Assembly: GCF_014652235.1 (NCBI RefSeq)
Contig: NZ_BMYK01000015.1
Location: forward strand, 1-64,000
Source of the DNA: Pseudorhodoferax aquiterrae
GTDB taxonomy: Bacteria > Pseudomonadota > Gammaproteobacteria > Burkholderiales > Burkholderiaceae_C
DNA length: 64,000 nt
Direction: 5' to 3'
The notes below the pieces were generated by a model that saw nothing but the letters and a program-made list of their open reading frames with translations, was not told the origin of the DNA and did not search any database. How positions within the stretch are numbered: position 1 is the stretch's first letter; every line of letters begins with the position of its first letter. The translations under genes and the position numbers were made by a program. Shown here in pieces: positions 622 to 40,773 of the stretch.

Positions 622-639
622 CGGGACCGCGGCTTGCCG
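622..639 (+). promoter_or_regulatory. Sigma-54-type -24/-12 promoter before the cytochrome oxidase relic
   Basis: GGACCGCGGCTTGCC has GG at 624-625 and GC at 636-637 with ten bases between, the RpoN spacing. Predicted +1 is near 649, and a purine-rich AGGAG follows at 662-666 before the decayed start codon. The same element recurs before many genes of the window. Confidence 0.55.
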
Positions 640-672
640 GCGCTGCGGCGTCCCTTTGCACAGGAGCGCCCC

Positions 673-1409
673 GTCAGCACTCCACCTCCTCTGGCCCATG
701 CCGTCCACGAGCCGCACGCCATGCCCCATGGCTGGGCCCGCTGGCTGGGCGCCACCAACCACAAGGACATCGGCACGCTGTACCTGCTGTTCAGCTTCGC
801 GATGCTGATGGTGGGCGGCGCCTTCGCGCTGGCCCTGCGCGCCGAGCTGCTGCAGCCCGGCCTGCAGCTGCTGAACCCCGACCTGTACAACCAGCTCGTG
901 ACCATGCACGGCTTGGTCATGGTGTTCGGCGCCATCATGCCGGCCTTCGTGGGCTTCGCGAACTGGATGGTCCCGCTGCAGATCGGCGCCTCCGACATGG
1001 CCTTCGCGCGCATGAACAATTTCAGCTTCTGGCTGCTGTGGCCGGCGTGGCGCTGCTCGCGTCGTTCTTCGTCACGGGCGGCGCGCCGGCCGCGGGCTGG
1101 ACGCTCTATGCGCCGCTGTCGTTCTTCATGTACGCCACGCTGCTGGTGGCCGTGCCCACGGCGGTCAAGGTGTTCAACTGGATCGCCACCATGTGGCAGG
1201 GCTCCATGACGTTCGAGACGCCCATGCTGTTCGCGGTGGGCTTCATCTTCGTGTTCACGGTAGGAGGCCTGTCCGGCGTGATGCTGGCGCTGGCGCCGCT
1301 GGACCTGCAGTACCACGACACCTGCTTCGTCGTCGCGCACTTCCACTACGTGCTGGTCTTCGAGCATCCGCCCCAACTCGACGCCACGGCCACGCGCGTG
1401 GTGGGCTAG
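673..1409 (+). pseudogene. Cytochrome c oxidase subunit I (ctaD-like) relic, frameshifted and internally deleted
   Basis: The frame contains unmistakable CoxI sequence: [19 protein letters not shown] at the N-terminus, then [22 protein letters not shown] frameshift near 1040 follows, after which the text resumes as [19 protein letters not shown] in another frame. After TLYAPLS the protein jumps to [20 protein letters not shown], so roughly 160 residues of the middle, including heme and copper ligands, are missing. It then ends soon after [14 protein letters not shown], losing the C-terminal helices. An AGGAG at 662-666 is well spaced from GTC AGC ACT at 673, suggesting an original GTG start mutated to GTC. 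The gene is dead. It was probably a second oxidase gene under the sigma-54-type promoter just upstream. Confidence 0.85.
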
Positions 1410-1639
1410 TGCGAGCTCGGCGCCGCGCGCTCGGCCGCCAGCAGCGCGCGTCCGCGCGCCGTGATGGCCAGCACGCGTGCCACACGCTGCGGGCTGGACG
1501 CGCCGTCGCCCGTGCGCAGGAAGAGCGCTGCGACCAGGTCGGCTGCGCGCAGGACCTGCGTCTCGTCCATCTCCGCGGGCTGCGAGAGCTGGACAGGCAA
1601 GGTGGTGGCTTCGAGTTTTCTGAGCAAGGCCAGGGTCAT
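1406..1639 (-). CDS. Small uncharacterised protein, 77 aa
   Basis: The 77-residue product begins [18 protein letters not shown] and has a compact, probably helical middle ([26 protein letters not shown]) that would suit a small winged-helix-like fold, but I do not recognise a family. The start is supported by AAGGA nine bases before the ATG and by a sigma-54-type element at 1672-1687 that places +1 about 22 nt upstream. Its stop overlaps the tail of the cytochrome oxidase relic on the other strand by a few bases. Confidence 0.6.
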
Positions 1640-1671
1640 GGTGGGGCGTCCTTCCTACACCACGGGACACG

Positions 1672-1687
1672 AGCAATCGGCATGCCA
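1672..1687 (-). promoter_or_regulatory. Sigma-54-type promoter of the 77-aa gene
   Basis: On the minus strand the sequence is TGGCATGCCGATTGCT, with GG-N10-GC and a very good match to the RpoN consensus TGGCACG-N4-TTGCW. Predicted +1 is near 1661, giving a 22-nt leader with an AAGGA ribosome site. Confidence 0.7.
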
Positions 1688-1846
1688 GCCAGGTCCCGAC
1701 GCCCCGTCTGCCGCTGCAGAGGAGCGAAGTGCGCAAGGGTCAGACTTGCTGCAAGCCTCGCCGCAGGTCGGCGCCTGACCGCAGACCTGGCGCGGCTACC
1801 GGCTCTGGTCGCGCTGGCGCTCGGAGGTGTTCTGGTGGGCCGGGGC

Positions 1847-3091: not shown

Positions 3092-3346
3092 TCAGGCCCG
3101 GGGCCGGCGCAGCATCAGCACGATGCCCCAGAGCGCGGCCAGACCGACCAGCACGTAGACCACGCGCGACAGCAGGCTCATGGGACCGAACAGCGCTGCC
3201 ACGAGGTCGAACTGCAGCAGCCCGACGAGGCCCCAGTTCAAGCCGCCGACCACGAGCAGCACCAGCGCGATGTAGTCGAGCGCGTTGAAGGGGCGGCGTG
3301 CCGCGACGTGCAGTTTCTGGGACGCGGTGTTCTGACCGATGGCCAT
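3092..3346 (-). CDS. DUF378 family small membrane protein, 84 aa
   Basis: The product has two hydrophobic helices (DYIALVLLVVGGLNWGLVGLL and VVYVLVGLAALWGIVLML) separated by a short loop with the DUF378 hallmark GGLNWGLVG, and it ends in basic residues. Length is normal for the family, whose function is unknown. The start at 3346 is chosen because AAGGAG sits just before it. A sigma-54-type element at 3389-3402 predicts a 32-nt leader. The upstream metallo-beta-lactamase gene ends at 3414, so the promoter fills the gap between them. Confidence 0.85.
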   Translation of the reverse strand: MAIGQNTASQKLHVAARRPFNALDYIALVLLVVGGLNWGLVGLLQFDLVAALFGPMSLLSRVVYVLVGLAALWGIVLMLRRPRA

Positions 3347-3386: not shown

Positions 3387-3404
3387 CGGCAATCGACGTG
3401 CCGC
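3387..3404 (-). promoter_or_regulatory. Sigma-54-type promoter of the DUF378 gene
   Basis: The minus strand reads GGCACGTCGATTGCC, a near-perfect -24 box (GGCACG) and -12 box (TTGC) with N10 spacing. A second TTGCC follows six bases later. Predicted +1 is near 3378. Confidence 0.7.
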
Positions 3405-3413: not shown

Positions 3414-4283
3414 TCAGCCGGCCGCCGGCCGCGCGGCGGGTGCCTCGATGGAGCGGCCTGCGAGCTGCTCGAATTCCAGGCGGTCGTGCGCGCAGAAGAG
3501 CGCCACAGTCGCATCGCCGCGGTTGCGCAGCTCGCGCAGGCGCTGCTGGTTGGCCAGCCGCGCGCGCCGATCCTTTTCCATGACGGTCTGGTACAGGCGC
3601 AGGCCGGGCGGGCACCAGGGCTGGCTGCGGTGCATCTCGGCATGGTGGAAGTAGGCGTCGCCGGCCAGCAGAAGCCAGCGCCCGGCGGACTGCACGGCCA
3701 CGCCCGCATGGCCCAGCGTGTGGCCAGGCAGGGGCACCAGCAGCAGCTCGGGCGGCAGGCCGGCCAGCCCGCGCACGCAGCCGAAACCGAACCAGGGCTC
3801 GCCCTCGCTGCCGTCGTAGACCTCCCAGCGGCGCTGCTGGCCCCATTGCTGCGGCCGGTAGCGCTGGCGGTCCAGCCAGCTCGACTGGGCCGCGGCATCG
3901 TCGCGCTCGCGCCGCAGCATGTGCACGCGCGCCTGCGGGAAGTCGTCCAGACCGCCGGCGTGGTCGAAGTCCAGGTGGGTCAGCACGATGTGGCGCACAT
4001 CCAGCGGATCGAAGCCGAGCCGCTGGATCTGGCGCAGCGCCGTCATCTCCTCGCGCAGCGCGGGCGCCATCAGGCGCAGGAAGAAGGGGCTGAGCCGGTT
4101 GTGCGGATCGTGCACGTCGCGCAGTCCATAGCCCGTGTCCACCAGCACCAGGCCCTGCGCGGTCTCCAGCAGCAGGCAGTGGCAGCACAGCTGCGCGCGC
4201 GTGATCGGGCCGCCCCGCTGCCCGTCCATGAGGTGGCCGCCGAGCGGGCAGGCCGTGATGCAGTTCAGGTGGTGGATGCGCAT
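3414..4283 (-). CDS. Metallo-beta-lactamase fold hydrolase
   Basis: A 289-residue MBL-fold protein. The zinc motif HLDFDHAGG (HxHxDH variant with Asp at the second position, as in lactonase-type members) follows the first strand VLVDTGYGLRD. PLPGHTLGHAG, LLLAGDAYFHHAEM and a C-terminal CAHD give the remaining ligands. The D in HxDxDH and the long N-terminal opening resemble AHL-lactonase/AttM-like enzymes, but the substrate cannot be told. I start it at MRIHHLNCIT, the normal N-terminus of this subgroup. The frame is open upstream to 4463. A sigma-54-type site puts +1 only 2 nt before this ATG, so the mRNA would be nearly leaderless. Confidence 0.85.
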   Translation of the reverse strand: MRIHHLNCITACPLGGHLMDGQRGGPITRAQLCCHCLLLETAQGLVLVDTGYGLRDVHDPHNRLSPFFLRLMAPALREEMTALRQIQRLGFDPLDVRHIVLTHLDFDHAGGLDDFPQARVHMLRRERDDAAAQSSWLDRQRYRPQQWGQQRRWEVYDGSEGEPWFGFGCVRGLAGLPPELLLVPLPGHTLGHAGVAVQSAGRWLLLAGDAYFHHAEMHRSQPWCPPGLRLYQTVMEKDRRARLANQQRLRELRNRGDATVALFCAHDRLEFEQLAGRSIEAPAARPAAG

Positions 4284-4294: not shown

Positions 4295-4312
4295 CGGCAA
4301 GCGGCGCTCCCG
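4295..4312 (-). promoter_or_regulatory. Sigma-54-type promoter of the metallo-beta-lactamase gene
   Basis: The minus strand reads GGAGCGCCGCTTGCC with N10 spacing between GG and GC. The same 15-mer occurs before the DksA/TraR gene. Predicted +1 is near 4285, two bases before the ATG. Confidence 0.6.
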
Positions 4313-4479: not shown

Positions 4480-4974
4480 TCAGCCGCGCAGGTGCGCGGC
4501 CATGTCCTTGGCCTGGCGCAGGATGCTGATCTTGCCGTCGGCCTCGAGCAGCGCGAGCTTCATGTCGGCCACATCGCAATCGGCCTCGCGCAGGGCCTCC
4601 AGCACATCTTCGCGCGTCACGTGCTCGGCGCGCAGCCGCTCGTCCAGTATGCGGCCGCCGTAGCCCACTACCACCGGCTCGCCTTCGGTGAGCTTGCGGA
4701 TGCGGTCGCTGCGCGCGCTGAGCCGGCTCACGAGCGCGTTGAGGCCCAGCAGCGTGCAGGCCGCGATCAGGCCGCCCACCAGCGATTCCTCGCCGCCGGT
4801 CAGGGCGTTGGAAACGCCTTCGCTGAGCAGCATCACGACCAGCAGGTCGAAGGGCGTGAACTGCCCGACCGTGCGTTTGCCCGACAGCCGCATGAGCACC
4901 AGCAGCACGGCGTAGACCGCCGCACCGCGCAGCACCAGCTCCCACCAGGGCAGGCTCATCTCGAACATCCGCAT
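4480..4974 (-). CDS. DUF421 (YetF-like) membrane protein, 164 aa
   Basis: An N-terminal membrane part (VLRGAAVYAVLLVLMRLSGKRTVGQFTPFDLLVVMLLSE, then a second segment LVGGLIAACTLLGLNALVSRL) is followed by a cytoplasmic domain with the DUF421 text LTEGEPVVVGYGGRILDERL and READCDVADMKLALLEADGKISIL. The motif GKRTVGQFTPFD is diagnostic for the YetF/DUF421 family. The molecular role is not established. It lies between the metallo-beta-lactamase gene and a small hydrophilic gene, all on the minus strand. Upstream, a TTGCCG element related to the island promoter is present but has GC in place of GG at -25/-24. Confidence 0.9.
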   Translation of the reverse strand: MRMFEMSLPWWELVLRGAAVYAVLLVLMRLSGKRTVGQFTPFDLLVVMLLSEGVSNALTGGEESLVGGLIAACTLLGLNALVSRLSARSDRIRKLTEGEPVVVGYGGRILDERLRAEHVTREDVLEALREADCDVADMKLALLEADGKISILRQAKDMAAHLRG

Positions 4975-5058
4975 CCTCCTCGTCGTCTCGTCGTGCAGGC
5001 AGGGCTTGCGGCAAGGTTCGCCGCAGCCCCTGTCACAGCCGGCAGCCCGGCGCGCGGC

Positions 5059-6644: not shown

Positions 6645-7198
6645 TCAACGCCGGCCTGGCGCACTGGCCGGCGCCGAAGGTGCGCTGGGCCTGATAGCGC
6701 CGCACCGGCAGCGCGGTCTGGCTGGCGTTGTTGCGGAAGGTCAGCGTCTCGCGCGTGTTGTCCTGCATCATGCCCTTGCGCACCGCGTAGCGCAGCTCGT
6801 CGTGCATGGCCGGTCCCTGGAAGTCCGGCACGGTGGCCTGATGGCGGTCGCGCTCCAGGCCCACCACCGTGAGGCCCGCGCGCGTGAGCGCGGCCCGGCA
6901 CCTCGCCGCGCTGGCGTTCGCCGGTCTGCAGCGCGCGCAGCTGCGCATCGCGCGCGGGGCCGTCCAGCTCGGCGAAGGCGGTGCCGCCGCCGGCCTGTTC
7001 TGCGCTGCGCCAGGCCGTCAGCGCGGCGCGGAACAGCTCGGCCGGGGTGTAGGGCAACTGGTGGCCCTGCTGCGGCAGGCCGCCCTGCCAGGGGCCGCTG
7101 CGGTACAGGCGTTCGCCGGCTGCGGCCACGCCGGCCGAATGCAGGACGAAGCTGCGCCGCGGCAGCGCGGTCCCGGGGGGCTTGGGCGGCGCGTTCAT
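6622..7198 (-). pseudogene. Gluconate 2-dehydrogenase subunit 3-like relic, frameshifted and ended by the MITE
   Basis: The start (MNAPPKPPGTALPRRSFVLH, 7198) overlaps the stop of the cytochrome c gene by four bases, as in gluconate dehydrogenase-type operons. ERLYRSGPWQGGLPQQGHQLPYTPAELFRAAL is typical of the subunit 3 family, but the stretch between the N-terminal leader and this motif is missing. A frameshift near 6900 follows. The other frame then reads LTVVGLERDRHQATVPDFQG and QDNTRETLTFRNNASQTALP, a piece I cannot assign. That frame runs into the MITE at 6644 and stops inside it at 6622. At least three lesions make function unlikely. Confidence 0.65.
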
Positions 7199-7527
7199 TT
7201 GGCAGGCGCTCCGGAGGCGATCCACTCGGCGAGGGTGCGCGCAGCCGCCGCGTCCACGCCCGGGTTGGGCGGCATGGGCACCGGGCCCCAGGCGCCCACG
7301 CTGCCGGCGCGGATCTTGTTGGCCAGGTAGTCTGCGGCGTCGGCGCGGCCCTTGTACTTGGCCGCGACCTCGTTGTAGCCCGGCCCCACGACCTTGTGGT
7401 CGGGCGCATGGCAGGCCAGGCAGTTGTTCTTCGCGAGCAGAGGCTGCACCTGGGCATAGGCCGGCGCGGCGCCGGCCTCGGCCGCGAGCAGCGCGAGGGG
7501 CAGGATCAGGGCGTGGGCGGGTTTCAT
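7195..7527 (-). CDS. Periplasmic c-type cytochrome (class I), 110 aa
   Basis: A signal peptide (MKPAHALILPLALLAAEAGA) precedes a single class I cytochrome c domain with heme motif CLACH at residues 36-40, HKVVGPGYNEVAAKYKG after it, and the Met ligand region GPVPMPPNPGV. The C-terminal helix AARTLAEWIASGAP completes the fold. This is cytochrome c551/c552-like and would carry electrons in the periplasm. AAGGAG precedes the ATG. The following gene, a dehydrogenase subunit relic, overlaps by ATGA, so the electron donor has probably been lost. Confidence 0.9.
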   Translation of the reverse strand: MKPAHALILPLALLAAEAGAAPAYAQVQPLLAKNNCLACHAPDHKVVGPGYNEVAAKYKGRADAADYLANKIRAGSVGAWGPVPMPPNPGVDAAAARTLAEWIASGAPAK

Positions 7528-7684
7528 CGGGGGCTCCTTGCGTGGTGCACGGATGGGCGGCGGCGCCTTCGGCAAGATCTGCCGCAAGAACTGCCCATCG
7601 CGCCGCGGTGTCGCAGGCCGCCGGCACGCTGCCGACGGCTGCCACGGGCGGGCAAGCCGGGTGCCCGGCCCACATGCGTGCTGC

Positions 7685-8799: not shown

Positions 8800-9447
8800 T
8801 CAGCCCGGAGGGCGCGGTGCCGTGCGGCCCGCGGCGAGCTGGCGCGCCTGGGCGAGATGGGCCTGCAGCATGGGCAGGGTCTTGCGCGCGAACGCCCGCA
8901 CGTCGGCATCGCCGGCCTTGTCGGCCGCCTCGGTGAAGCGTTCCACCGCGTCGGTGTAGGTGTCGCCGTCCAGGCGTTCGCGGTAGCGGCCGTCGAAATC
9001 GGCGCGGTCGGCGTCCTCCAGCCGCCGCAGCTGCGCGCGTGCGCCCATCGGCGGTCCGTCGGGCAGCTCCACGCCCTTGCGCTGCGCCAGGCGGCGCAGT
9101 TCGGCCTCGCTTTGCGCGAGGTCCTGCGCAAGGCGGCGCGCAAAGGCGGCCAGTTGCGGATCGCGGGCCTTCTGCGCCGCGAGCCGCGCCGCCGGCAGTT
9201 CGGCCATGGCCAGCTTGGCGGCATCGTTGAGGAAGGTGGTGTCCACCCGCGTCAGGAAGGCCTGCTGGCGGCCCTTGCGGACCCCGTCCTCGCCCGCGAA
9301 TTCCGGGCCGTTGTCCGGGCGGCTGTGGCGGGTCGCGTCGGCGCCGCGATGGCCTGCGGCCAGGCCGGTGTCCGGCTGCGCGTGCGCGCCCAGGGCCCAG
9401 CACAGCGCGCAGAACAGGGCGCTGGGACCGAAGAACAGGCTTCTCAT
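8800..9447 (-). CDS. DUF4142 domain secreted protein, 215 aa
   Basis: A signal peptide (MRSLFFGPSALFCALCWALGAHA) and a spacer are followed by the ferritin-like four-helix DUF4142 domain: FLNDAAKLAMAELPAARLAAQKARDPQLAAFARRLAQDLAQ, then KGVELPDGPP and FTEAADKAGDADVRAFARKTLPMLQAHL. No metal-ligand set is obvious, and the biochemical role of this periplasmic family is unknown. A paralogue lies at 11332-11952. Both have a sigma-54-type promoter and a good ribosome site (AGGAG), so the two are likely coregulated. Confidence 0.85.
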   Translation of the reverse strand: MRSLFFGPSALFCALCWALGAHAQPDTGLAAGHRGADATRHSRPDNGPEFAGEDGVRKGRQQAFLTRVDTTFLNDAAKLAMAELPAARLAAQKARDPQLAAFARRLAQDLAQSEAELRRLAQRKGVELPDGPPMGARAQLRRLEDADRADFDGRYRERLDGDTYTDAVERFTEAADKAGDADVRAFARKTLPMLQAHLAQARQLAAGRTAPRPPG

Positions 9448-9490: not shown

Positions 9491-9508
9491 TGGCAAACGG
9501 CGGTCCCG
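9491..9508 (-). promoter_or_regulatory. Sigma-54-type promoter of the first DUF4142 gene
   Basis: The minus strand reads GGACCGCCGTTTGCC, GG-N10-GC, +1 near 9481 and a 34-nt leader that carries AGGAG. Confidence 0.65.
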
Positions 9509-9875: not shown

Positions 9876-9893
9876 ACGGCACGCCGTTTGCCG
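9876..9893 (+). promoter_or_regulatory. Sigma-54-type promoter before the 63-aa gene and UdgX
   Basis: GGCACGCCGTTTGCC is the best consensus match in the window, with GG at 9878-9879 and GC at 9890-9891. Predicted +1 is near 9903, 46 nt before the ATG at 9949. The udgX-like gene follows in the same direction 11 bp after the small gene. Confidence 0.72.
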
Positions 9894-10151: not shown

Positions 10152-10754
10152 ATGGCCACCCGTGCTGCGGTGCCGCGGTCGGTGGGAGCGCTCAAGGCTG
10201 CCTGCGACGCCTGCCGCGACTGTCCCCTGGGCGAGCCGGCCACGCAGGCCGTGGTCGGCGCCGGGCCGCGCCGGGCCCGGCTGATGGTGGTGGGCGAGCA
10301 GCCCGGCGATCGCGAAGACCTCGCGGGCCAGGCCTTCGTGGGCCCGGCGGGCCGGCTGCTCGACGCGGCGCTGCAGCGCGCCGGCATCGACCGCGGCGCC
10401 GTGTTCCTGACCAACGCGGTCAAGCACTTCGGCTTCACCTGGCGCGGCAAGCGCCGGCTGCACGAGACGCCGGGCCAGCGCGAGGTCGATGCCTGCCTGC
10501 AGTGGCTGCAGGCCGAAATCGCGTTCGTGGCCCCGCAGGCCTTCGTGGCACTGGGTGCGACGGCGGCGCGCGCGCTGCTGGGCCGTCCAACGCCGGTGCT
10601 GCGCAACCGCGGCCAGTGGCTGGCCCGCGACGACGGGCGTCCCGTGCTCGTCACCGTGCATCCCTCGGCCCTGCTGCGCCTGCGCGGGGACGACTTCGCC
10701 CAAGGCCTGGCGGCGTTCGTGGACGACCTCGGCCAGGCCGCCGGCCGGGCCTAG
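10152..10754 (+). CDS. udgX: UdgX-type uracil-DNA glycosylase, 200 aa
   Basis: A uracil-DNA glycosylase superfamily protein: an N-terminal Cys pair (CDACRDCPLG) as in iron-sulfur family 4 enzymes, motif GEQPGDREDLAGQAFVGPAGRLLD, the inserted loop GKRRLHETPGQRE, and the C-terminal HPSALLR motif. The KRRxH loop is the hallmark of UdgX, in which the loop histidine forms a covalent bond with the abasic sugar after uracil removal. Here Ile of KRRIH is replaced by Leu. It lies 11 bp after a small membrane protein gene and shares its sigma-54-type promoter. Role: uracil/deamination damage repair. Confidence 0.88.
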   Translation: MATRAAVPRSVGALKAACDACRDCPLGEPATQAVVGAGPRRARLMVVGEQPGDREDLAGQAFVGPAGRLLDAALQRAGIDRGAVFLTNAVKHFGFTWRGKRRLHETPGQREVDACLQWLQAEIAFVAPQAFVALGATAARALLGRPTPVLRNRGQWLARDDGRPVLVTVHPSALLRLRGDDFAQGLAAFVDDLGQAAGRA

Positions 10755-10805: not shown

Positions 10806-11225
10806 TCAGGAGCTCAGCGAGATCCTGATCGCGCCCGGATGCGCACGCTCGTGGCGCTCCTGGCAGGCGATGCAGCGCTCGGCCGCCGGCAGCGCCTGCA
10901 GCCGCTCCATCGCGATGGGAGCGCCGCAGTCCACGCACAAGCCGTAGTCGCCGCTGCGCATGCGTTCCTGCGCCTGGGCGATCTGCTGCAATTCCTGCTG
11001 GTCGCGCTCCTTCTCGGCATGGCGCACCGCGGTGCGGATGGCCTGCTCGCCGCGGTCGCCCTCGTCCCCGGGCTCATGGGGGCCGCCGGTGGTGCTCTGG
11101 GCGGCCTGGGCGGTGGCGTCCGCGGTCTCGGCGTCCAGCGTGCGCACCTCCTGGGCCAGCTCTGCGCGGCGCGCGCCGAGGCGCCGGCCGAGGTCGGCGA
11201 TGTCCTGCTCGTGGTCTTGGGTCAT
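10806..11225 (-). CDS. DksA/TraR family zinc-finger protein, 139 aa
   Basis: The N-terminal half is a coiled coil (LGRRLGARRAELAQEVRTLDAETADATAQ and IRTAVRHAEKERDQQELQQIAQAQERM), followed by the zinc finger CVDCGAPIAMERLQALPAAERCIACQ with four cysteines in the DksA/TraR C-x2-C...C-x2-C order and the family text GDYGLCVDCG. Such proteins bind the RNA polymerase secondary channel and tune promoters during stress. The gene is divergent from the second DUF4142 gene, each with its own sigma-54-type site in the 106-bp gap. The predicted leader is 13 nt and begins with the ribosome site. Confidence 0.88.
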   Translation of the reverse strand: MTQDHEQDIADLGRRLGARRAELAQEVRTLDAETADATAQAAQSTTGGPHEPGDEGDRGEQAIRTAVRHAEKERDQQELQQIAQAQERMRSGDYGLCVDCGAPIAMERLQALPAAERCIACQERHERAHPGAIRISLSS

Positions 11226-11247: not shown

Positions 11248-11265
11248 TGGCAAGCGGCGCTCCCG
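11248..11265 (-). promoter_or_regulatory. Sigma-54-type promoter of the DksA/TraR gene
   Basis: The minus strand reads GGAGCGCCGCTTGCC, identical to the site before the metallo-beta-lactamase gene. +1 is near 11238, so the leader is only AAGGAG plus spacer. Confidence 0.65.
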
Positions 11266-11278: not shown

Positions 11279-11296
11279 CGGGAACCCCGTTTGCCG
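11279..11296 (+). promoter_or_regulatory. Sigma-54-type promoter of the second DUF4142 gene
   Basis: GGAACCCCGTTTGCC, GG at 11281-11282 and GC at 11293-11294. +1 is near 11306 and the 26-nt leader includes CCAAGGAG. It lies back-to-back with the site for the DksA/TraR gene. Confidence 0.65.
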
Positions 11297-11331: not shown

Positions 11332-11952
11332 ATGGCAAACACCACCTCCAAGACCCCCCTGGCGCTGCGCCTGGGCCTCGCTGGCAGCGTCCTGTGCCTG
11401 GCGCTGGCGGCCGCGGCGCAGACCAGCACCGCCACGCAGGGCGGCACGACCGCGGGGCAGGGCGAACGCGCAGGCCGGGCGTCGTCCCAGCTGTCGCGCG
11501 CCGACACCGCTTTCATGAAGCAGGCGGCCGAGAACAACCACGCGGAGATCGAGAGCAGCCGCCTGGCGGTGCAGAAGGCCAGCGATCCGGCCGTCAAGGC
11601 CTTCGCCCAGCAGATGGTGGCCGACCATGGGAAGACCGGGCAGGAGCTTGCCGCCCTGGCCAGCACCAAGGGGGTGGAACTGCCCGACGGGCCGTCCATG
11701 ATGCAAAAGGCCAAGCTCAAGCTGCTGGAGGCTGCCGACGGCGAGAAATTCGACCGCCGCTACAGCGAGACCATGGGCCTGGCGGCGCACCGCGACACCA
11801 TCGCGCTGTTCCAGAAGGCGGCCAAGGAGGCGCGCGACCCGGAGGTCAAGGCCTTCGCCACCAAGACGCTGCCGGCCCTGCAAGGCCACCTGGACATGGC
11901 GCAGAAGCTGCCCGCGGCACACGCGGCTGACAAGGGCCACGGCAAGCGCTGA
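11332..11952 (+). CDS. DUF4142 domain secreted protein, 206 aa
   Basis: A signal peptide (residues 1 to about 30, LRLGLAGSVLCLALAAAAQ) precedes the DUF4142 ferritin-like helices: FMKQAAENNHAEIESSRLAVQKASDPAVKAFAQQMVADHGKTGQEL, TKGVELPDGPSMMQKAKLKLL, and LFQKAAKEARDPEVKAFATKTLPALQGHLDMAQ. This is the canonical copy; the protein at 8800-9447 is a diverged paralogue with the same KGVELPDGP signature. A perfect ribosome site and a sigma-54-type promoter precede it. The periplasmic function is not known. Confidence 0.9.
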   Translation: MANTTSKTPLALRLGLAGSVLCLALAAAAQTSTATQGGTTAGQGERAGRASSQLSRADTAFMKQAAENNHAEIESSRLAVQKASDPAVKAFAQQMVADHGKTGQELAALASTKGVELPDGPSMMQKAKLKLLEAADGEKFDRRYSETMGLAAHRDTIALFQKAAKEARDPEVKAFATKTLPALQGHLDMAQKLPAAHAADKGHGKR

Positions 11953-14067: not shown

Positions 14068-15896
14068 AGCGTAATCTCCGGGCCGATCTGCCAGCGCGCC
14101 GCCCAGGCCGGCCAGGTGCCGGGTGGCGTGTCGGCCGGCCAGCGGTGGGCGAACACCGGGCTCGCCTCCACCGGGCCGGGCCCGGGCCCATCGACCGCGA
14201 GCGGCGCGGCGCCCAGGTTCAGGTCCATGGCCAGCACCTGGCCGTCGTCGTAGCGCCATTGCACGGCCAGGCCCGTCGCGCCGACGCGCCGCGCCGTGTG
14301 CCGGCCGGTCAGCAGCATCTGCTGGCGCGGGCGGATCCACTGCCAGCGCGCGGCCAGGGCGCGCTGCACCACGGCGCGGTGCGCGCGGCCGGCCGGGCTG
14401 TCGGCCTGGGTCCAGTCGAGCCGGCTCGCAGCGAAAGTCTCCTCGCTGCAGGCATCGGGCAGGGGCCGTCCGCCCTGGGTGTCGACGGCATGGCCGAACT
14501 CGCGCCGGCGGCCCGCGCGCACGGCCTCGCGCAGTTCGCCGTGCCAGTCGGCGAAGTACAGGAAGGGCGTCTGCGCGCCGAACTCCTCGCCGAAGAACAG
14601 CAGGGGGGTCGCCGGCGTGAGCAGCGCGAGCAGCGTGGCCAGCAGCGCGGCCTCGGGCGCAACCAGCTGCGCCAGCCGCTCGCCGAAGGCCCGGTTGCCG
14701 ACCTGGTCGTGGTTCTGCGCGAAGTTCACGAGCGTGCCCAGCGGCTGCGCCGGCACCGGCACGCAGGCCTGGCGCCGCCCGTCCTCGCGCTGCGCGCCCT
14801 CGAACACCATGCCGTGCGTGCAGGCCCGCGCCAGCAGGTCCAGCGGCTCTGCGGTGTAGTCGCCGTAGTAGCCCCGGTGCTCGCCGGTCAGCGCCACGTG
14901 CAGCACGTGGTGGAAGTCGTCGTTCCACTGCGCGTCGTGGCGGCCGGGCACCGGCATGGGCGCCAGCCAGCTGTGGCCGTTGTGTTCGTTCTCCAGCGTC
15001 AGGTGCACATGGCGGCCGGCCGTGGCGCTGCGCACGGCGGTGGCGATCTCCTGCACGATGTGGCGCGGGCCGGTGTCGACGATGGCGTGCACGGCGTCCA
15101 GCCGCAGGCCGTCGATGCGGAACTCCTGCACCCAGTACAGCGCGTTGTGCACGAAGAACTGGCGCACCCAGTGGCTGGCCGGCCCATCGAAGTTGATGGC
15201 CGCGCCCCAGGGGCTGTGGTGCGTGCGCGAGAAGAAGTCGGGCGCGTAGCGTGCCAGGTGGTTGCCGTCCGGACCGAAGTGGTTGTAGACCACGTCCAGG
15301 AACACCATGAGGCCGAGCCGGTGGGCCTGCTGCACGAAGGCGCGCAGCGCGTCCGGGCTGCCGTAGGCGGCATGCGGCGCGAACGGCAGCACGCCGTCGT
15401 AGCCCCAGCCGAAGCGCCCGCCGAAGGCCGCCACGGGCATCAGCTCCACGGCCGTGATGCCCAGCGCGGCCAGCTCGGGCAGGCGGGCCGCGGCGGCGGC
15501 GAAGCTGCCCTCGGGCGTGAAGCAGCCCACGTGCAGCTCGTACAGCACGACTTCGTTCCAGGGCCGGCCCTGCCAGCCGTCGTCGTCCCAGGCGAAGCGG
15601 CGCGCGTCCACCACGCGGCTGGCACCGTGCACGCCGTCGGGGTTGCTGCGCGAGGCGGGGTCGGCCACCGCCGGGCCCTCGTCGATGCGCCAGCGGTAGG
15701 CCGTGCCGGGGCCGGCGTCGTCCACGCTGCAGTGCCACCAGCCCTCGGGCTGCGGCGTCGCAAGCAGCGTGCGCAGCGGCGCCTGGGCACCGAGCGCGAG
15801 CGCGACGCTGCGGGCGGCGGGCGCCCACAGCCGAAAGTCCACGCCGCCCCCGGGACGGGGCTGGGCGCCGAAGGGCATGGAGTGGCTGGCGGGCAT
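14064..15896 (-). CDS. treZ: Malto-oligosyltrehalose trehalohydrolase
   Basis: A GH13 enzyme that releases trehalose from maltooligosyl-trehalose. An N-terminal immunoglobulin-like domain (VDFRLWAPAARSVALAL) is followed by the barrel: LYELHVGCFTPEGSF, VELMPVAAFGGRFGWGYDG, VVYNHFGPDGN, the nucleophile in GLRLDAVHAI, the acid/base Glu in LTLENEHN, and NHDQVGNRA. About 610 residues, normal length. I start at 15896 because the predicted +1 is 15931; ATGs at 15926 and 15935 are alternatives, and none has a strong ribosome site. Operon with malQ. The partner enzyme TreY must be elsewhere, or trehalose synthesis is incomplete. Confidence 0.9.
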   Translation of the reverse strand: MPASHSMPFGAQPRPGGGVDFRLWAPAARSVALALGAQAPLRTLLATPQPEGWWHCSVDDAGPGTAYRWRIDEGPAVADPASRSNPDGVHGASRVVDARRFAWDDDGWQGRPWNEVVLYELHVGCFTPEGSFAAAAARLPELAALGITAVELMPVAAFGGRFGWGYDGVLPFAPHAAYGSPDALRAFVQQAHRLGLMVFLDVVYNHFGPDGNHLARYAPDFFSRTHHSPWGAAINFDGPASHWVRQFFVHNALYWVQEFRIDGLRLDAVHAIVDTGPRHIVQEIATAVRSATAGRHVHLTLENEHNGHSWLAPMPVPGRHDAQWNDDFHHVLHVALTGEHRGYYGDYTAEPLDLLARACTHGMVFEGAQREDGRRQACVPVPAQPLGTLVNFAQNHDQVGNRAFGERLAQLVAPEAALLATLLALLTPATPLLFFGEEFGAQTPFLYFADWHGELREAVRAGRRREFGHAVDTQGGRPLPDACSEETFAASRLDWTQADSPAGRAHRAVVQRALAARWQWIRPRQQMLLTGRHTARRVGATGLAVQWRYDDGQVLAMDLNLGAAPLAVDGPGPGPVEASPVFAHRWPADTPPGTWPAWAARWQIGPEITL

Positions 15897-26368: not shown

Positions 26369-26458
26369 TGAGCCCGCCCGGCGGGCCGGCACGGTTTGCG
26401 GCAAGATTTGCCGGGCGATCGCACGCCAGTGACGGGCCGGCGGCGGAGCCCCCACGCC

Positions 26459-31045: not shown

Positions 31046-31633
31046 TCAGCGGGTCTGGTCGGTCTGTCCCCCGGGCGGCGGCACCACGTCCTCGGCGCGG
31101 CCCCGCTCTGCCTGTTCGGGCAGGCCGCTGGTGGGCTCGCCCTTGATGGCATGGTCGGCGCGGGCGCGTCGCAGCACGGCCCGCTTCTTGGCCAGGTCCT
31201 CGCGCGACAGGGAGGACGAGGCCTGCTGGCCGGCCTGGTGCTCGGCGTCATCCATGGGGGCTCTCGCGGGTGTGGTGGACCCGCTGGCGCCGGCGCCCGC
31301 AGGCGCGGGCGGTGCCGCGGCGGCTTCGGCCGGCCGCGCCTGGCCGCCGGCCCGCGCTGTCAAGTCGCTGTAGCGCCGCTGCGTGGCGGGGCCGCGGGGC
31401 GCATCGGCCTGGCCGGCCTGCAGTTCGCGGCCCGCCTGGCGCATGCTTTCACTGGGCGCGCGCACGCCGCTGTCGGACGACTCGTCGCGCTCGTGCGGCA
31501 GGCGCAGCGCCTCGTCGTCCTGCACCACGGTGCGGGTGGTGCCGCGGTCGGCGGGGCTGCCGCTGGCCGGCGGCGGGTCGCCGGCGCTGGCATGGGTGGC
31601 AAGCTCGGGGGAAGGTGGGGTAGTCCGGGTCAT
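31046..31633 (-). CDS. Hydrophilic low-complexity protein, 195 aa
   Basis: The product is rich in Ala, Pro, Arg, Gln and Glu with no hydrophobic segment, for example VVQDDEALRLPHERDESSDSG and DLAKKRAVLRRARADHAIKGE. It is predicted to be largely disordered, a style common in desiccation or stress proteins, but no family is recognised. The DESSDSG motif with HERDE recurs in small hypothetical proteins of this group. The ATG at 31633 coincides exactly with the predicted +1 of a sigma-54-type promoter, so its mRNA would be leaderless; no ribosome site is visible. Confidence 0.6.
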   Translation of the reverse strand: MTRTTPPSPELATHASAGDPPPASGSPADRGTTRTVVQDDEALRLPHERDESSDSGVRAPSESMRQAGRELQAGQADAPRGPATQRRYSDLTARAGGQARPAEAAAAPPAPAGAGASGSTTPARAPMDDAEHQAGQQASSSLSREDLAKKRAVLRRARADHAIKGEPTSGLPEQAERGRAEDVVPPPGGQTDQTR

Positions 31634-31642: not shown

Positions 31643-31660
31643 TGGCAATCGGCGTTCCAC
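31643..31660 (-). promoter_or_regulatory. Sigma-54-type promoter, predicted leaderless transcript
   Basis: The minus strand reads GGAACGCCGATTGCC. The C of the -12 GC is at 31645, so +1 is 31633, the A of the ATG. Confidence 0.65.
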
Positions 31661-33898: not shown

Positions 33899-34569
33899 AT
33901 GTTCTTTCACAACAAGCGTCTGCAGTACACGGTCCGCGTGACCGAGACCAACCCGGGTCTGGCCAACCTCATGCTCGAGCAGTTCGGCGGGCCGCAGGGC
34001 GAGCTGGCCGCCGCCTGCCGCTACTTCACCCAGGCCCTGGGCGAGGACGACCCCGGCCGCAAGGACATGCTCATGGACATCGCCACCGAAGAACTCAGCC
34101 ACCTGGAGGTCATCGGCACCATCGTGGCCATGCTCAACAAGGGCGCCAAGGGCCGGCTGGCCGAGGGCGTGGAGACCGAGGCCGAGCTGTACCGCGCCAT
34201 CTCGGGCGCCGGCAACGACAGCCACGTGACCCAGGTGCTGTACGGCGGCGGCCCGCCGCTGGTGAACTCCGCCGGCGTGCCCTGGACGGCCGCCTACATC
34301 GACACCATCGGCGAGCCCACGGCGGACCTGCGCTCCAACATCGCGGCCGAGGCGCGCGCCAAGATCGTCTACGAGCGGCTCATCAACCTCACGGACGACC
34401 CGGGCGTGAAGGAGGCGCTGGGCTTTCTGATGACGCGCGAGATCGCGCACCAGAAGTCCTTCGAGAAGGCGCTGTACAGCATCGCGCCGAACTTCCCGCC
34501 GGGCAAGACGCCGGGCGACCCGCGCTTCACCAGCGTGTACTTCAACATGTCGCAGGGCGACGGCGACGC
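33899..34569. repeat. Inverted long repeat, arm 1 (catalase core)
   Basis: About 670 bp are nearly identical, with a few silent changes, to 40050-40720 on the opposite strand. Similarity stops abruptly after the codons for SQGDGD. The arms enclose about 5.5 kb. Confidence 0.9.
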
Positions 34570-34852
34570 GGCGACCGGGCCCTGGAACACCGGCGAGCGC
34601 TGGCAGGTGGTGTCCGAACGCGAGGCGCAAAGCGCTGTCGATGGCGGCGATGGCTCGGCGACGACCCAGCTCGACGACGCCGAGGCGGCGGTCGTCGCGC
34701 AGATGGCGGGCCGCACGGCCTCGGTGCCGGCTGGCGATCCCATGACCGGCGCCGAGCTCGGCATGGCCGACGACGAAGCCTTGACCGAGGTCCAGCGCAC
34801 GCTGGAGTCCGTCCCGGCCGACGGCGTTGGCACGCCGCGGCCTGGGCAGTAG
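33899..34852 (+). CDS. Manganese catalase, copy 1, 317 aa
   Basis: A non-heme dimanganese catalase that removes hydrogen peroxide. Ligands: E35 in GPQGELAAACRY, E65 and H68 in ATEELSHLEVI, then the Glu of AAEARAKIVYERL and the His of REIAHQKSFEKAL. YGGGPPLVNSAGVPWTAAYI and FPPGKTPGDPRFTSVYFNMS are typical. The C-terminal tail from about residue 225 is variable and Ala/Glu-rich. The first about 223 residues are the same as in the copy at 39758-40720 except residue 3. Unlike that copy it has no promoter of the island type upstream. Confidence 0.95.
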   Translation: MFFHNKRLQYTVRVTETNPGLANLMLEQFGGPQGELAAACRYFTQALGEDDPGRKDMLMDIATEELSHLEVIGTIVAMLNKGAKGRLAEGVETEAELYRAISGAGNDSHVTQVLYGGGPPLVNSAGVPWTAAYIDTIGEPTADLRSNIAAEARAKIVYERLINLTDDPGVKEALGFLMTREIAHQKSFEKALYSIAPNFPPGKTPGDPRFTSVYFNMSQGDGDAATGPWNTGERWQVVSEREAQSAVDGGDGSATTQLDDAEAAVVAQMAGRTASVPAGDPMTGAELGMADDEALTEVQRTLESVPADGVGTPRPGQ

Positions 34853-36651: not shown

Positions 36652-37571
36652 ATGCCGCGCCGGCCGAGCCGCTCGCTTTGACCGCGCAATCGCTGCGCGA
36701 CTGGCCGCTGCCGGCGCCCGATGCCGGCGGCGACAAGGAGGCGCGCGGCCAGGTGCTGGTCGTGGCCGGCAGCCGCGAGATGCCCGGCGCGGCGCTGCTG
36801 GCCGCGCGCGCTGCGCTGCGGGCCGGCGCGGGCAAGCTGTCCATGGCCGTGCCGCAGTGCATCGCGCAGGGACTGGCCCTGCAGATGCCCGAGGCGCGTG
36901 TGATCGCCTTGCCCGAGACCGCCGAGGGCGGCCTGGCCGCCGATGGCGCGCAAGAACTCGCGGCGGTGGCCGGCAAGGCCTCGGCCGTGCTGGTCGGGCC
37001 GGGCATGCAGCATGGGGCCGCCACCTGTGCCTTCGTGGCGGTGGCGCTGCCGCTGTGCGCGCAGGCCACGGTCGTGCTCGACGCGCTGGCCATGGACATC
37101 GTGCGCGCGGGCAGCCGCTTCACCCAGCCGGTGGTGCTGACGCCGCACGCGGGCGAAATGGCGGGCCTGCTGGACATTCCCAAGGACGAGATCCTGGCCG
37201 CACCGGCCCGCCACGCGCTGGCCGCGGCCCGGCGCTGGCAAGCCGTCGTGGCGCTCAAGGGCGCCACCACCTGCATCGCCGCTGCGGACGGCCGTGCCTG
37301 GCAGCACAGCTGCACGGTGCCGGGCCTGGGCACCTCCGGGTCGGGCGATGTGCTGGCCGGCGCGCTGGCCGGGCTGGCGGCCCAGGGTGTGCCTGCCGAG
37401 CAGGCGGCCGCCTGGGCCGTGGCCGCGCACGCGCAGGCCGGCAGCCGGCTCGCGCGCCGGCACGGCACGCTGGGCTATCTGGCCAGCGAGATCTGCGATG
37501 CACTGCCGGCCGCGCTGCACCGCTTGGCGCAGCACCCGCGCGGGAACGCGGTTTGCCGCACCCACGCATGA
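36648..37571 (+). CDS. nnrD: ADP/ATP-dependent (S)-NAD(P)H-hydrate dehydratase
   Basis: A YjeF C-terminal/carbohydrate-kinase-like domain alone, without the epimerase half. GQVLVVAGSREMPGAALLAARAALRAGAGKLSMAVP, AVLVGPGMQHG, VVLTPHAGEMAGLL, VVALKGATTCIAAADGRAW and the catalytic GTSGSGDVLAGALAGLAAQG are all there. It repairs hydrated NAD(P)H with ADP/ATP. Its 3' end (codons for GNAVCR) doubles as the sigma-54-type promoter of the next gene. Confidence 0.92.
   Translation: MNAAPAEPLALTAQSLRDWPLPAPDAGGDKEARGQVLVVAGSREMPGAALLAARAALRAGAGKLSMAVPQCIAQGLALQMPEARVIALPETAEGGLAADGAQELAAVAGKASAVLVGPGMQHGAATCAFVAVALPLCAQATVVLDALAMDIVRAGSRFTQPVVLTPHAGEMAGLLDIPKDEILAAPARHALAAARRWQAVVALKGATTCIAAADGRAWQHSCTVPGLGTSGSGDVLAGALAGLAAQGVPAEQAAAWAVAAHAQAGSRLARRHGTLGYLASEICDALPAALHRLAQHPRGNAVCRTHA
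37541..37558 (+). promoter_or_regulatory. Sigma-54-type promoter inside the nnrD 3' end, leaderless
   Basis: GGAACGCGGTTTGCC, GG at 37543-37544 and GC at 37555-37556. +1 is 37568, the A of the next ATG. Because the sequence is also coding it must serve both roles. Confidence 0.6.
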
Positions 37572-37777: not shown

Positions 37778-37778
37778 G

Positions 37779-38544: not shown

Positions 38545-38559
38545 GGGAGGCTCCTGGGT

Positions 38560-39711
38560 TCAGCGCGCGGAGGGCATGGTCAGCACCGTCTTGATGCAGC
38601 CGTCGAGCTTGCTCGAGAAGATGTGGTACGCATCGGCCACGTGCTCCAGCGGAATGCGGTGGGTGATGACTTCGGAAGGCTTGACCCGACCGGCGCGCAC
38701 ATGCTCGATGAGCCGCGGCAGGTGGCGCTTGACGCTGGCCTGGTTCATGCGCAGCGTGAGGCCTTTGTTCAGCGCGTTGCCGATGGGCACGGCGTTGAAG
38801 GTGGGGCCGTAGACGCCCACGATGGAGACCGTGCCGCCCTTGCGCACCGAATTGATGGCCCAGTGCAGCACGGTGGCCGCGCCGGCCTGCAGCATGAGGT
38901 GCACACCGGTCAGCCGCTGCAGCGCGCTGCCGCTGGCCTCGGCGCCCACGGCGTCGATGCAGACGTCCGGGCCGAGCCCGTCGGTCATCTTCTTCAGGTG
39001 CACGGCCATGTCGCGCACGTCGCGGAAGTTCACGGTCTCGCAGTGCGCGAAGCGGCGCACGAAGTCCAGCCGGTAGTCGACCTCGTCGACGACGATCACG
39101 CGGCCGGCACCCAGCAGCCAGGCCGATTTGGCCGCGAAGATGCCGACCGGCCCGGCGCCGAACACCACCACCGTGTCGTTCTCGCGGATGTCGCCCATCT
39201 CGGCGGCCTGGTAGCCGGTGGGGAAGGCATCGGTCAGCAGCACCGCATCGTCCAGCGAAATGTCCTCCGGGATCACGGTCGGGCCGATGTCGGCCATGGG
39301 CACGCGCACCCGTTCGGCCTGGCCGCCGGCATAGCCGCCCGTGGTGTGCGAGTAGCCGTAGATGCCGCCGACGGCCGTGGCCTCGGGGTTCACGTTGTGG
39401 CAGTTGCTGTAGAGCTCGCGCTCGCAGAACCAGCAGGTGCCGCAGAAGATGTTGAAGGGCACGAGCACGGCGTCGCCGACCTTGAGGTTGCGCACCGCAG
39501 GGCCGACCTCCTCGACGACGCCGCAGAACTCGTGGCCGAAGGTGCTGCCCACGCGCGTGTCGGGCACCAGGCCATGGAACAGGTGCAGGTCCGAGCCGCA
39601 GATGCACGAGCGCGTGACGCGCACGATGGCATCGCCCGGGTGCTCGATGCGCGGTTCGGGCATGTGGTCGGCACGCACGCGGTAGGGACCGCGGTAATTC
39701 ATTGCCAGCAT
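38560..39711 (-). CDS. Zinc-dependent alcohol dehydrogenase (formaldehyde dehydrogenase-like)
   Basis: A 383-residue MDR enzyme. Catalytic zinc site CICGSDLHLFHG with FGHEFCGVVEEVG; structural zinc loop FCGTCWFCERELYSNC; NAD site VVVFGAGPVGIFAAKSAWLLGAGRVIVVDEVD. The long insertion between the zinc sites resembles glutathione-independent formaldehyde dehydrogenases of the FdhA class. GGAG before the ATG. It follows Mn-catalase 2 by 46 bp, so peroxide and aldehyde removal are coexpressed from the sigma-54-type promoter at 40756. Confidence 0.88.
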   Translation of the reverse strand: MLAMNYRGPYRVRADHMPEPRIEHPGDAIVRVTRSCICGSDLHLFHGLVPDTRVGSTFGHEFCGVVEEVGPAVRNLKVGDAVLVPFNIFCGTCWFCERELYSNCHNVNPEATAVGGIYGYSHTTGGYAGGQAERVRVPMADIGPTVIPEDISLDDAVLLTDAFPTGYQAAEMGDIRENDTVVVFGAGPVGIFAAKSAWLLGAGRVIVVDEVDYRLDFVRRFAHCETVNFRDVRDMAVHLKKMTDGLGPDVCIDAVGAEASGSALQRLTGVHLMLQAGAATVLHWAINSVRKGGTVSIVGVYGPTFNAVPIGNALNKGLTLRMNQASVKRHLPRLIEHVRAGRVKPSEVITHRIPLEHVADAYHIFSSKLDGCIKTVLTMPSAR

Positions 39712-39757
39712 GGATCGCTCTCCGGAAAGGGGCCGCGGTGCGGCCCGTGGGTGGACG

Positions 39758-40720
39758 TCAGAGACCGGGGGTGGTGGGCGGAGTGGTGCCGCCCGCGCCG
39801 TCCGTCGACGGCTTGACGGCCCGCGTGATGTCGTTGAGCGCGGCGTCCTCGCCCATGCCGAGTTCGGCGCCGGTGAGCGGATCGCCGGTGGGCACGGAGG
39901 CGGTGCGCTGGGCCATCTGCTGCACCACGCTGTCTTCCTCGGCGCCCAGCTGCACGCCGGGCAGGCCGGAGCCGCCGTCGACCGCGGCCTGCTGGTCGCG
40001 GTCGGACACGAACTGCCAGCGGTCGCCGGCGTTCCAGGGACCGCGCACGGTGTCGCCATCCCCCTGCGACATGTTGAAGTACACGCTGGTGAAGCGCGGA
40101 TCGCCCGGCGTCTTGCCTGGCGGGAAGTTCGGCGCGATGCTGTACAGCGCCTTCTCGAAGGACTTCTGGTGCGCGATCTCGCGCGTCATCAAAAAGCCCA
40201 GCGCCTCCTTCACGCCCGGATCGTCCGTGAGGTTGATGAGCCGCTCGTAGACGATCTTGGCGCGCGCCTCGGCCGCGATGTTGGAGCGCAGGTCCGCCGT
40301 GGGCTCGCCGATGGTGTCGATGTAGGCGGCCGTCCAGGGCACGCCGGCGGAATTCACCAGCGGCGGGCCGCCGCCGTACAGCACCTGGGTCACGTGGCTG
40401 TCGTTGCCGGCGCCCGAGATGGCGCGGTACAGCTCGGCCTCGGTCTCCACGCCCTCGGCCAGCCGGCCCTTGGCGCCCTTGTTGAGCATGGCCACGATGG
40501 TGCCGATCACCTCCAGGTGGCTGAGCTCCTCGGTGGCGATGTCCATGAGCATGTCCTTGCGGCCGGGGTCGTCCTCGCCCAGGGCCTGGGTGAAGTAGCG
40601 GCAGGCGGCGGCCAGCTCGCCCTGCGGGCCGCCGAACTGCTCGAGCATGAGATTGGCCAGGCCCGGGTTGGTCTCGGTCACGCGGACCGTGTACTGCAGG
40701 CGTTTGTTGTGGGCGAACAT
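39758..40720 (-). CDS. Manganese catalase, copy 2, 320 aa
   Basis: The same family and ligands as copy 1 (E35, E65, H68, plus the Glu in AAEARAKIVYERL and the His in REIAHQKSF). Residues 1 to about 223 are the same except A3 for F3; then the tails diverge (DTVRGPWNAGDRWQFVSDRDQQ...). CAGGAG precedes the ATG. A sigma-54-type promoter gives a 26-nt leader. The first gene of an operon with an alcohol dehydrogenase and an anchored protein. Confidence 0.95.
   Translation of the reverse strand: MFAHNKRLQYTVRVTETNPGLANLMLEQFGGPQGELAAACRYFTQALGEDDPGRKDMLMDIATEELSHLEVIGTIVAMLNKGAKGRLAEGVETEAELYRAISGAGNDSHVTQVLYGGGPPLVNSAGVPWTAAYIDTIGEPTADLRSNIAAEARAKIVYERLINLTDDPGVKEALGFLMTREIAHQKSFEKALYSIAPNFPPGKTPGDPRFTSVYFNMSQGDGDTVRGPWNAGDRWQFVSDRDQQAAVDGGSGLPGVQLGAEEDSVVQQMAQRTASVPTGDPLTGAELGMGEDAALNDITRAVKPSTDGAGGTTPPTTPGL
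40050..40720. repeat. Inverted long repeat, arm 2 (catalase core)
   Basis: Counterpart of 33899-34569 in inverted orientation. The start codons of both genes are at the arm ends, and flanking and tail sequences are unrelated or much diverged. Confidence 0.9.
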
Positions 40721-40755
40721 GAAGAACTCCTGGTGGGTGGTGGTCCGGCCGGTGT

Positions 40756-40773
40756 CGGCAATCGGTGTGCCGG
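40756..40773 (-). promoter_or_regulatory. Sigma-54-type promoter of the Mn-catalase 2 operon
   Basis: The minus strand reads GGCACACCGATTGCC, +1 near 40746, 26-nt leader with CAGGAG. Confidence 0.68.

Follow-up and report, generated by a model that had tools for sequence, protein, structure and literature searches.

The window analysed here is the first 64 kb of contig C15 in the genome of the soil bacterium Pseudorhodoferax aquiterrae (G000; 7.11 Mb, 94 contigs). Between 0.6 and 41 kb it carries an array of 15-nt sites that resemble the -24/-12 promoters of sigma-54 (RpoN), lying mostly just 5' of start codons and directed into the genes. Perfect copies of the consensus are located at 9878-9892 (+), before short open reading frames (ORFs; 69 and 63 amino acids (aa)) and a uracil-DNA-glycosylase-superfamily gene (10182-10754; termed UdgX in the original prediction), at 18956-18970 (-), before the UDP-galactopyranose mutase gene glf (17711-18916), and at 31644-31658 (-), 25 nt before ORF 31046-31633, whose shorter call (31046-31528) matched no Pfam family. 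The divergent sites 11249-11263 (-) and 11281-11295 (+) precede a DksA/TraR zinc-finger gene (10806-11225) and a DUF4142 gene (11332-11952), respectively, and a second DUF4142 gene (8800-9447) follows the site at 9492-9506 (-). Further sites stand before a DUF378 gene (site 3388-3402, -; gene 3092-3346), 27 nt before a metallo-beta-lactamase-fold gene (site 4296-4310, -; gene 3414-4283), before a treZ-like CBM48/alpha-amylase gene (site 15942-15956, -; gene 14064-15896; the next gene is labelled malQ by the original prediction only), before a glycosyltransferase gene (site 21008-21022, +; start uncertain, 21025-21151, end 22287), 25 nt before a 69-aa ORF at 37568 (site 37543-37557, +) and 51 nt before a Mn-catalase gene (site 40757-40771, -; gene 39758-40720). 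Genes were called with a crude codon-usage caller, so that some starts are wrong; sites 624, 9878, 26222 and 37543 have no called start, and start distances were read separately.

The six sites originally named as examples (9878 +, 11281 +, 15956 -, 18970 -, 21008 + and 40771 -) are present as claimed, and the original count of sixteen is fair once weaker copies are included: sites 624, 1686, 26201 and 26222 raise the promoter-like total to about 16, with 26222 doubtful, as is 7665. A search for GGMACGCCGNTTGCC with at most one mismatch yielded 13 places in the 64 kb, against 0.27 +/- 0.47 (largest 2) in shuffled sequence. Twelve of the 13 lie within 3.4-40.8 kb; the 13th, at 50585 (-), has A as its first base and lies inside a called gene. 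Matching with up to three mismatches proved nearly uninformative as a test, the excess being small (82 versus 56.6 +/- 7.9 in shuffles). In the non-coding DNA up to 150 nt upstream of called starts, GG-N8-TTGC (that is, GG-N10-GC) occurs between 0.5 and 41.5 kb 13 times in sense and four times in antisense orientation, versus a shuffled sense mean of 2.35 and a largest value of 7, and once, as a loose case, in 41.5-64 kb. Because the search pattern itself dictates GG and TTGC, both in this count and in the site alignment, the excess at the spacing is the actual test. Sense counts between 0.5 and 41.5 kb at spacings 5, 6, 7, 10 and 11 are 1, 7, 2, 2 and 2; the 11 cases at spacing 9 are taken as an echo, because a G precedes GG in 12 of the 18 window sites. 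Furthermore, a matrix trained only on 66 sites of other genera gave 13 hits of at least 14 bits in 0.5-41.5 kb, none in 41.5-64 kb and none in 160 kb of control sequence (eight stretches); at the 12-bit cut-off the counts were 17, 3 and 12. In 41.5-64 kb, where the original prediction noted no such site, there are thus no places of 14 bits, besides the loose GG-N8-TTGC case and the intragenic 50585.

The array is not confined to the window: a second cluster of the same sites lies on contig C7 at 194-219 kb. Comparison within the genus covered six genomes (G000-G005), of which G000, G003 and G004 carry a second sigma-54 gene, rpoN2, and G001, G002 and G005 carry one rpoN each. The C7 and C15 clusters correspond in G003 to one continuous island at about C3:98-156 kb and in G004 to loci on C143 and C165. 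At 14 bits or more the matrix found 22 hits in the 66.6 kb of G000 islands versus 3 in about 294 kb of stretches taken irrespective of any match (window 41.5-64 kb, C7 flanks, C15 64-104 kb, the eight controls and C35); C13 and C2, fetched as match-bearing, gave one hit each. The contrast is weaker at 12 bits (27 in the G000 islands versus 12 in the 160 kb of controls). The islands of the three rpoN2-bearing congeners hold 42 sense GG-N8-TTGC sites, against summed shuffle means of 7.5, and 19 antisense ones, some of them belonging to divergent genes; the G000 share is 21 in 66.6 kb versus 6 in 272 kb of other G000 sequence. Across 44 sites of the genus, GG stands a median of 53.5 nt before the start. 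Thus the proposed RpoN geometry is borne out, the spacing being specifically enriched and orientation, start distance and clustering fitting -24/-12 promoters. The original prediction named an equal frequency of the motif elsewhere in the genome as grounds for refutation; the opposite was found, both in the roughly 0.3 Mb scanned out of 7.1 Mb and in a whole-genome search for the exact pattern.

The sigma-54 DNA-binding domain was found in two genes of G000, the housekeeping rpoN on C35 and rpoN2 at C7:216867-218255 (462 aa), which lies in the second cluster. RpoN2 belongs to the RpoN family, with domains PF00309 (AID), PF04963 (core-binding) and PF04552 (DNA-binding) and the RpoN box ARRTVTKYRQ, which matches the family box ARRTVxKYR. 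Its neighbours, by Pfam, encode a carbamoyltransferase, a CheB/CheR/PAS hybrid kinase, other receiver proteins, an NtrC-type activator and a hemerythrin; glycosyltransferase-like genes were also seen in the cluster by eye. Phylogenetic analysis placed 27 of 107 rows in an RpoN2 group (SH-aLRT 97) and left 80 as RpoN1-like, so that RpoN2 is not an orthologue of the housekeeping RpoN1; the deeper forks of this tree are weak and its root is arbitrary. Named members come from Pseudorhodoferax, Roseateles, a Burkholderiales metagenome-assembled genome, Pusillimonas, Parapusillimonas and other Alcaligenaceae. A relative in Paracidovorax stands outside the tree, three RpoN2 proteins of this genus having been added in the residue comparison only. 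Residue 384, just after the helix-turn-helix, is R in 29/29 RpoN2 and S in 99% of the 80 RpoN1 proteins, and together with residue 310 (R in RpoN2 for K in RpoN1) it separates the two almost perfectly.

The canonical sigma-54 consensus is TGGCACG-N4-TTGCW (PMC4371752). Island sites share with canonical RpoN promoters the GG-N10-GC geometry, the GGCAC and TTGC blocks, an activator gene nearby and, for some of them, palindromic upstream candidate enhancers. Unlike them, they rarely show the textbook T before GG, mostly have C rather than A/T at -11, often have CCG in the normally free spacer, and precede stress-type rather than nitrogen or motility genes. Among the 44 genus sites, -11 (the position after TTGC) is C in 32 and A or T in 9, and T precedes GG in 2; sites of other genera agree (C at -11 in 43/66, T before GG in 2/66). 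By comparison, sites of the six genomes that do have T before GG are followed after TTGC by A/T in 39 cases versus 14 in a reversed control, and by G/C in 28 versus 24. For Rhodobacter sphaeroides, position -11 has been reported to distinguish RpoN1 from RpoN2 promoters (PMC3162934). The original RpoN-type interpretation is supported, by sequence and comparison only; the evidence points to a second RpoN and a non-textbook variant of the motif.

Exact GGMACGNNGNTTGCC occurs 13, 20 and 6 times in the rpoN2-bearing G000, G003 and G004 versus 1, 3 and 2 times in G001, G002 and G005, with 1-3 occurrences of reversed-pattern controls; 10 of the 13 in G000 and 7 of the 20 in G003 lie in the islands. 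The canonical TGGYACG-N4-TTGCW (7, 6 and 8 versus 4, 8 and 6, in the same order) does not track rpoN2, unlike the island motif. Of four further genomes, G016, G033 and G035, each with a second sigma-54 gene, contain 4, 5 and 9 exact motifs. Beyond the genus, 12 loci of other genomes hold 62 sense GG-N8-TTGC sites versus 12.0 in shuffles, 8 of the 12 exceeding their own largest shuffle. In other Burkholderiales rpoN2 often lies among stress genes bearing such sites, and the gene itself is preceded by one in 15 of 27 locus sets (site filter), often ending in TTGCG; rpoN2 promoters ending in TTGCG or TTGCA rather than TTGCC recur at L057, L117-L125 and others. Downstream of the sites in the 27 locus sets we collected 87 proteins, some behind chance sites, excluding 15 rpoN genes and dropping genes cut by locus ends. 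Among the 25 commonest of their 83 Pfam families are BON (6), group-1 glycosyltransferase (4), short-chain dehydrogenase, DUF2383 and PRC-barrel (3 each), and CsbD, hemerythrin, DJ-1/PfpI, pyridoxamine-oxidase-like, transglycosylase-associated and long-catalase C-terminal domains (2 each).

These gene kinds overlap with the RpoS general stress response (catalase, CsbD, BON-type, trehalose), although the sigma family of RpoS is unrelated to RpoN2. RpoS passes the cut-off in 6/9 genomes searched, G000 included (not in G163, G151 and G074), and is found beside RpoN2 in G000, G003, G004, G033 and G035. A replacement of RpoS by RpoN2 in the genus was accordingly rejected, and RpoN2 here would work beside RpoS, not instead of it.

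The cognate enhancer-binding protein called for by the original prediction has a candidate about 3 kb from rpoN2, an NtrC-type activator (C7:212685-214037) with PF00158, a PF00072 receiver and a PF02954 Fis-type helix-turn-helix, carrying GSFTGA for GAFTGA in its loop. Activators with G[SA]FTGA-[DEA]RQH lie near rpoN2 in 20/32 loci (17/25 and 3/7). All 15 activators compared, from 11 loci, are closest to the C7 activator among 14 of the 16 G000 activators; the other two and those of G074, G040, L113, L114 and L154 were left out. At L118, L119, L123, L162, G131, G152 and G166, two different activators, mostly GSFTGA, lie close together beside rpoN2, which may be a two-activator arrangement. A dyad scan of 36 upstream regions of G000 and G003 (words of 4-6, gaps of 0-13, dyads in at least 4 regions listed; some regions overlapping at divergent pairs or orthologous) ranked TTGCNGCAA first, with 8/36 regions versus 0/217 controls and 2 occurrences in 249 kb of control sequence, and GCAANNNTTGC second (5/36 versus 0/217). 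The top match was picked after the fact, as many word and gap combinations were scanned. The two are read as parts of one putative palindrome, GGCAANNNTTGC-S-GCAANNNTTGCC, a candidate copy of which lies at C7:211344-211368. It occurs upstream of the rpoN2 site (about 110-125 nt in G000 and G004, about 150 nt in G003), in the region that separates the hybrid kinase operon from the activator operon, and 5' of window sites 26201 and 40771. Full dyads number 3, 1 and 4 genome-wide in the rpoN2-bearing congeners and 0, 0 and 0 in the others.

Taken together, we consider it probable that the window sites are -24/-12 promoters read by a dedicated RpoN2, which would be triggered by the neighbouring activator and drive a stress/envelope regulon; the window array is best read as one half of that regulon. 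In the putative model, the adjoining CheB/CheR/PAS hybrid histidine kinase probably controls the activator (C7:212685-214037), which in turn would trigger RpoN2 (C7:216867-218255), probably by binding the palindrome about 90-200 nt upstream of several promoters. The RpoN2 holoenzyme would then switch on the Mn-catalase, DUF4142, DksA/TraR-like, treZ-like, glycosyltransferase, glf and other genes. Discrimination from the housekeeping RpoN1 would rest on the promoter variant, with its C at -11 and its infrequent T before GG, and on residues specific to RpoN2, and RpoN2 is expected to bind GGCACGCCGTTTGCC in preference to TGGCACG-N4-TTGCA. The signal, judged from gene content, may be stationary phase, desiccation or envelope/oxidative stress. 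What the sequences establish is the sites and their clustering, the RpoN2 clade, the gene neighbourhoods and the co-occurrence; the reading of the sites by RpoN2, the binding of the palindrome by this activator, a general stress as trigger and the phenotype are inferred. Sigma-54 promoters fire only with an activator, and the stress regulon would therefore be silent until the signal arrives, unlike RpoS or extracytoplasmic function (ECF) regulons.

Several observations weigh against this model. Neither the orthologous sites of the three congeners nor the divergent promoter pairs count as independent observations, and 13 of the 20 exact motifs of G003 lie outside C3:98-156 kb. Mn-catalase is present in the three rpoN2-bearing congeners and was not found in the three others; the island thus seems to come and go as a unit, and the motif counts therefore partly reflect its presence, not only selection on promoters. 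G023 has 5 exact motifs (control 2), yet its second sigma-54 match is a marginal fragment, and four of the 12 loci of other genomes (G016, G322, L116 and G040, the last with an outlying RpoN) stay within the range of their shuffles. No G[SA]FTGA-[DEA]RQH activator was seen in 12 of the 32 rpoN2 loci, whose flanks are often short. As for the palindrome, single-strand matches to this upstream activating sequence (UAS) number 10, 4 and 11 in genomes with rpoN2 versus 6, 3 and 3 in those without, so that discrimination requires the full dyad. Only 4 of the 18 window sites have a candidate UAS in the 300 nt upstream, in one case overlapping the divergent promoter. The notion that every promoter carries the candidate enhancer was rejected on the remaining 14, which suggest activation shared between promoters, a looser binding site than the pattern, or further activators.

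Finally, the promoter of rpoN2 itself ends in TTGCG in the three congeners. It may therefore be read by RpoN1, which fits an RpoN1-to-RpoN2 cascade as in Ralstonia solanacearum, and it also lends something to the view that ordinary RpoN1 reads all the sites, with RpoN2 as a bystander. The GG-N10-GC geometry is common to sigma-54 promoters in general, and the dependence of R. solanacearum rpoN2 expression on rpoN1 (PMC4371752) indicates that systems of this kind have at least one promoter on which RpoN1 acts. We nevertheless regard this view as unlikely: island-type sites are rare in the RpoN1-only congeners (1, 3 and 2, though the island is missing there) whereas canonical sites are equally common, and T before GG or A/T at -11 is rare among the island sites.

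Considerably less probable than a reading by RpoN1 is that the 15-mer serves as a palindromic operator (GGCA-N7-TGCC) for a repressor or activator that works with sigma-70-type promoters. The consensus is partly symmetrical and lies mostly 25-70 nt before starts, but its copies point into genes, rpoN2 promoters of other genera keep GG-N10-GC with the symmetry broken (GGCATGGTGTTTGCA, GGCACGGATATTGCG), and the link to an rpoN paralogue would be left unexplained. An assignment of the GGAAC-like half to the -35 element of an ECF or RpoS-type promoter is very improbable. Some sites begin with GGAAC, the genes are RpoS/ECF-like and RpoS is present in G000, but TTGCC at a fixed spacing would be unexplained, and positions 15-24 after the motif start hold no strongly conserved block (at most 0.57 bits, in line with G+C content); the lack of a -10 block at a fixed distance led us to reject this assignment. 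Chance in a G+C-rich genome, or a dispersed repeat, is the least credible of all: the small excess at three mismatches and the 12 hits of 12 bits in the 160 kb control would suit it, but not the 13 places versus 0.27 at one mismatch, the absence of hits of at least 14 bits from the eight control stretches, the differing flanks of the sites or the failure to find an equal density elsewhere.

The remaining features of the window and its counterparts are as follows. The site GGACCGCGGCTTGCC at 624-638 (+) lies 5' of a cytochrome oxidase subunit I-like gene that is frameshifted or truncated here. This gene (624-1409) is broken in the window, and in G003 a 536-aa ORF carries the same kind of site (GGACCGCGGTTTGCC, 53 nt before the start). 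At 1672-1686 (-), GGCATGCCGATTGCT stands 47 nt before a 77-aa ORF (1406-1639; no Pfam family), with a similar site in G003. The G003 orthologue of the DUF378 gene has GGCATGCCGATTGCC, the site at 4296-4310 is identical in G003, and that before glf is identical in G004 (C165:175915). The weak, doubtful site GGCACCCGGCTTGCC (7651-7665, -) lies 138 nt before ORF 7195-7527. A DUF2934 gene (ATG 26140, end 25562) follows the site at 26187-26201 (-), its G004 orthologue having GGCACGCAACTTGCC at C165:165875, and the candidate UAS GGCACGGTTTGCGGCAAGATTTGCC (26388-26412) lies about 190 nt upstream of this site. A further candidate enhancer, beginning GGTAAGGCTTGCCGCAA and with one good half only (40861-40885), lies about 90 nt upstream of site 40771, and another, GGCAGGGCTTGCGGCAAGGTTCGCC (4998-5022), upstream of a DUF421 gene (4480-4968, -), by which no clear -24/-12 site was seen. 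Two Mn-catalase genes (33899-34852 and 39758-40720) are 87% identical, and only the second is preceded by a clear -24/-12 site and a candidate enhancer. A transposase-like fragment (2-466, by eye) adjoins the island at the start of C15 and may relate to the split between C7 and C15. Off the islands, a perfect-consensus site at G000 C13:44251-44265 (L058) lies near a short CusF-like ORF and cupredoxin/multicopper-oxidase-like genes (by eye), and TTGCNGCAA is absent from the 20 kb around it. Exact motifs away from the islands are more numerous in G003 than in G000 or G004, and a larger dispersed regulon is possible in G003.

Extending the model to the order, we lean, with less assurance than for the window, towards an orthogonal sigma-54 stress system across Burkholderiales, in which RpoN2, together with activators of its own (mostly GSFTGA), a dedicated enhancer palindrome and a promoter dialect marked by C at -11, would control a portable general-stress regulon. 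RpoN2 would be marked by a TKYR/SKYR or AKYRH box and an FFSR/FFPR signature and would act beside RpoS where present, and the regulon would include catalases, BON, CsbD, hemerythrin, DUF4142, trehalose and exopolysaccharide genes.

That sigma-54 paralogues can have activators and promoters to themselves is established for alphaproteobacteria (PMC3162934, PMC11999139). RpoN1, RpoN2 and RpoN3 of Cereibacter (Rhodobacter) sphaeroides have their own targets, a reported difference at -11 between RpoN1 and RpoN2 promoters and, for RpoN3, a cognate activator, AprX (PMC3162934, PMC11999139); this alphaproteobacterium differs in that the targets named for it are nitrogen and flagellar genes and a CtrA-repressor gene, not a stress island. 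Within Burkholderiales, Burkholderia pseudomallei needs a second sigma-54 for a stress catalase in late growth: katE expression was decreased in the rpoN2 mutant and undetected by quantitative reverse-transcription PCR (PMC4745423). Its authors mention an earlier report of RpoS control of katE, and the available part of the paper tests one target in depth and describes no promoter variant, activator or enhancer (PMC4745423). In R. solanacearum, rpoN2 had no observed phenotype, its role was called enigmatic and its expression depended on rpoN1 (PMC4371752, PMC4676750). As at several loci here, that gene (Rsp1671) lies near two GSFTGA activators (Rsp1667 and Rsp1668), judged by locus number; unlike here, no observable role was found for it, and the likeness is one of locus arrangement. 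Two RpoN proteins were noted in B. thailandensis, where a part of RpoN in stationary phase was suggested (PMC12322963), and a plasmid RpoN of a Bradyrhizobium strain was linked to stress (PMC13207237). Among the matches listed, open-literature titles and abstracts gave no description of a Burkholderiales RpoN2 that governs a stress regulon through a promoter variant of its own; prior work may exist, as most subscription papers were not covered. Sigma-54 paralogues with their own promoters and the RpoN2-katE link are thus already published, and the promoter variant and stress regulon proposed here would add to them.

In summary, the second rpoN genes of Burkholderiales have shown little phenotype so far, and the system proposed here, if true, would give the enigmatic rpoN2 a common function. 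Candidate targets, a promoter variant, an activator and a candidate binding site can now be named for it, and the two sigma-54 dialects would make a natural pair with which to study recognition at -11.

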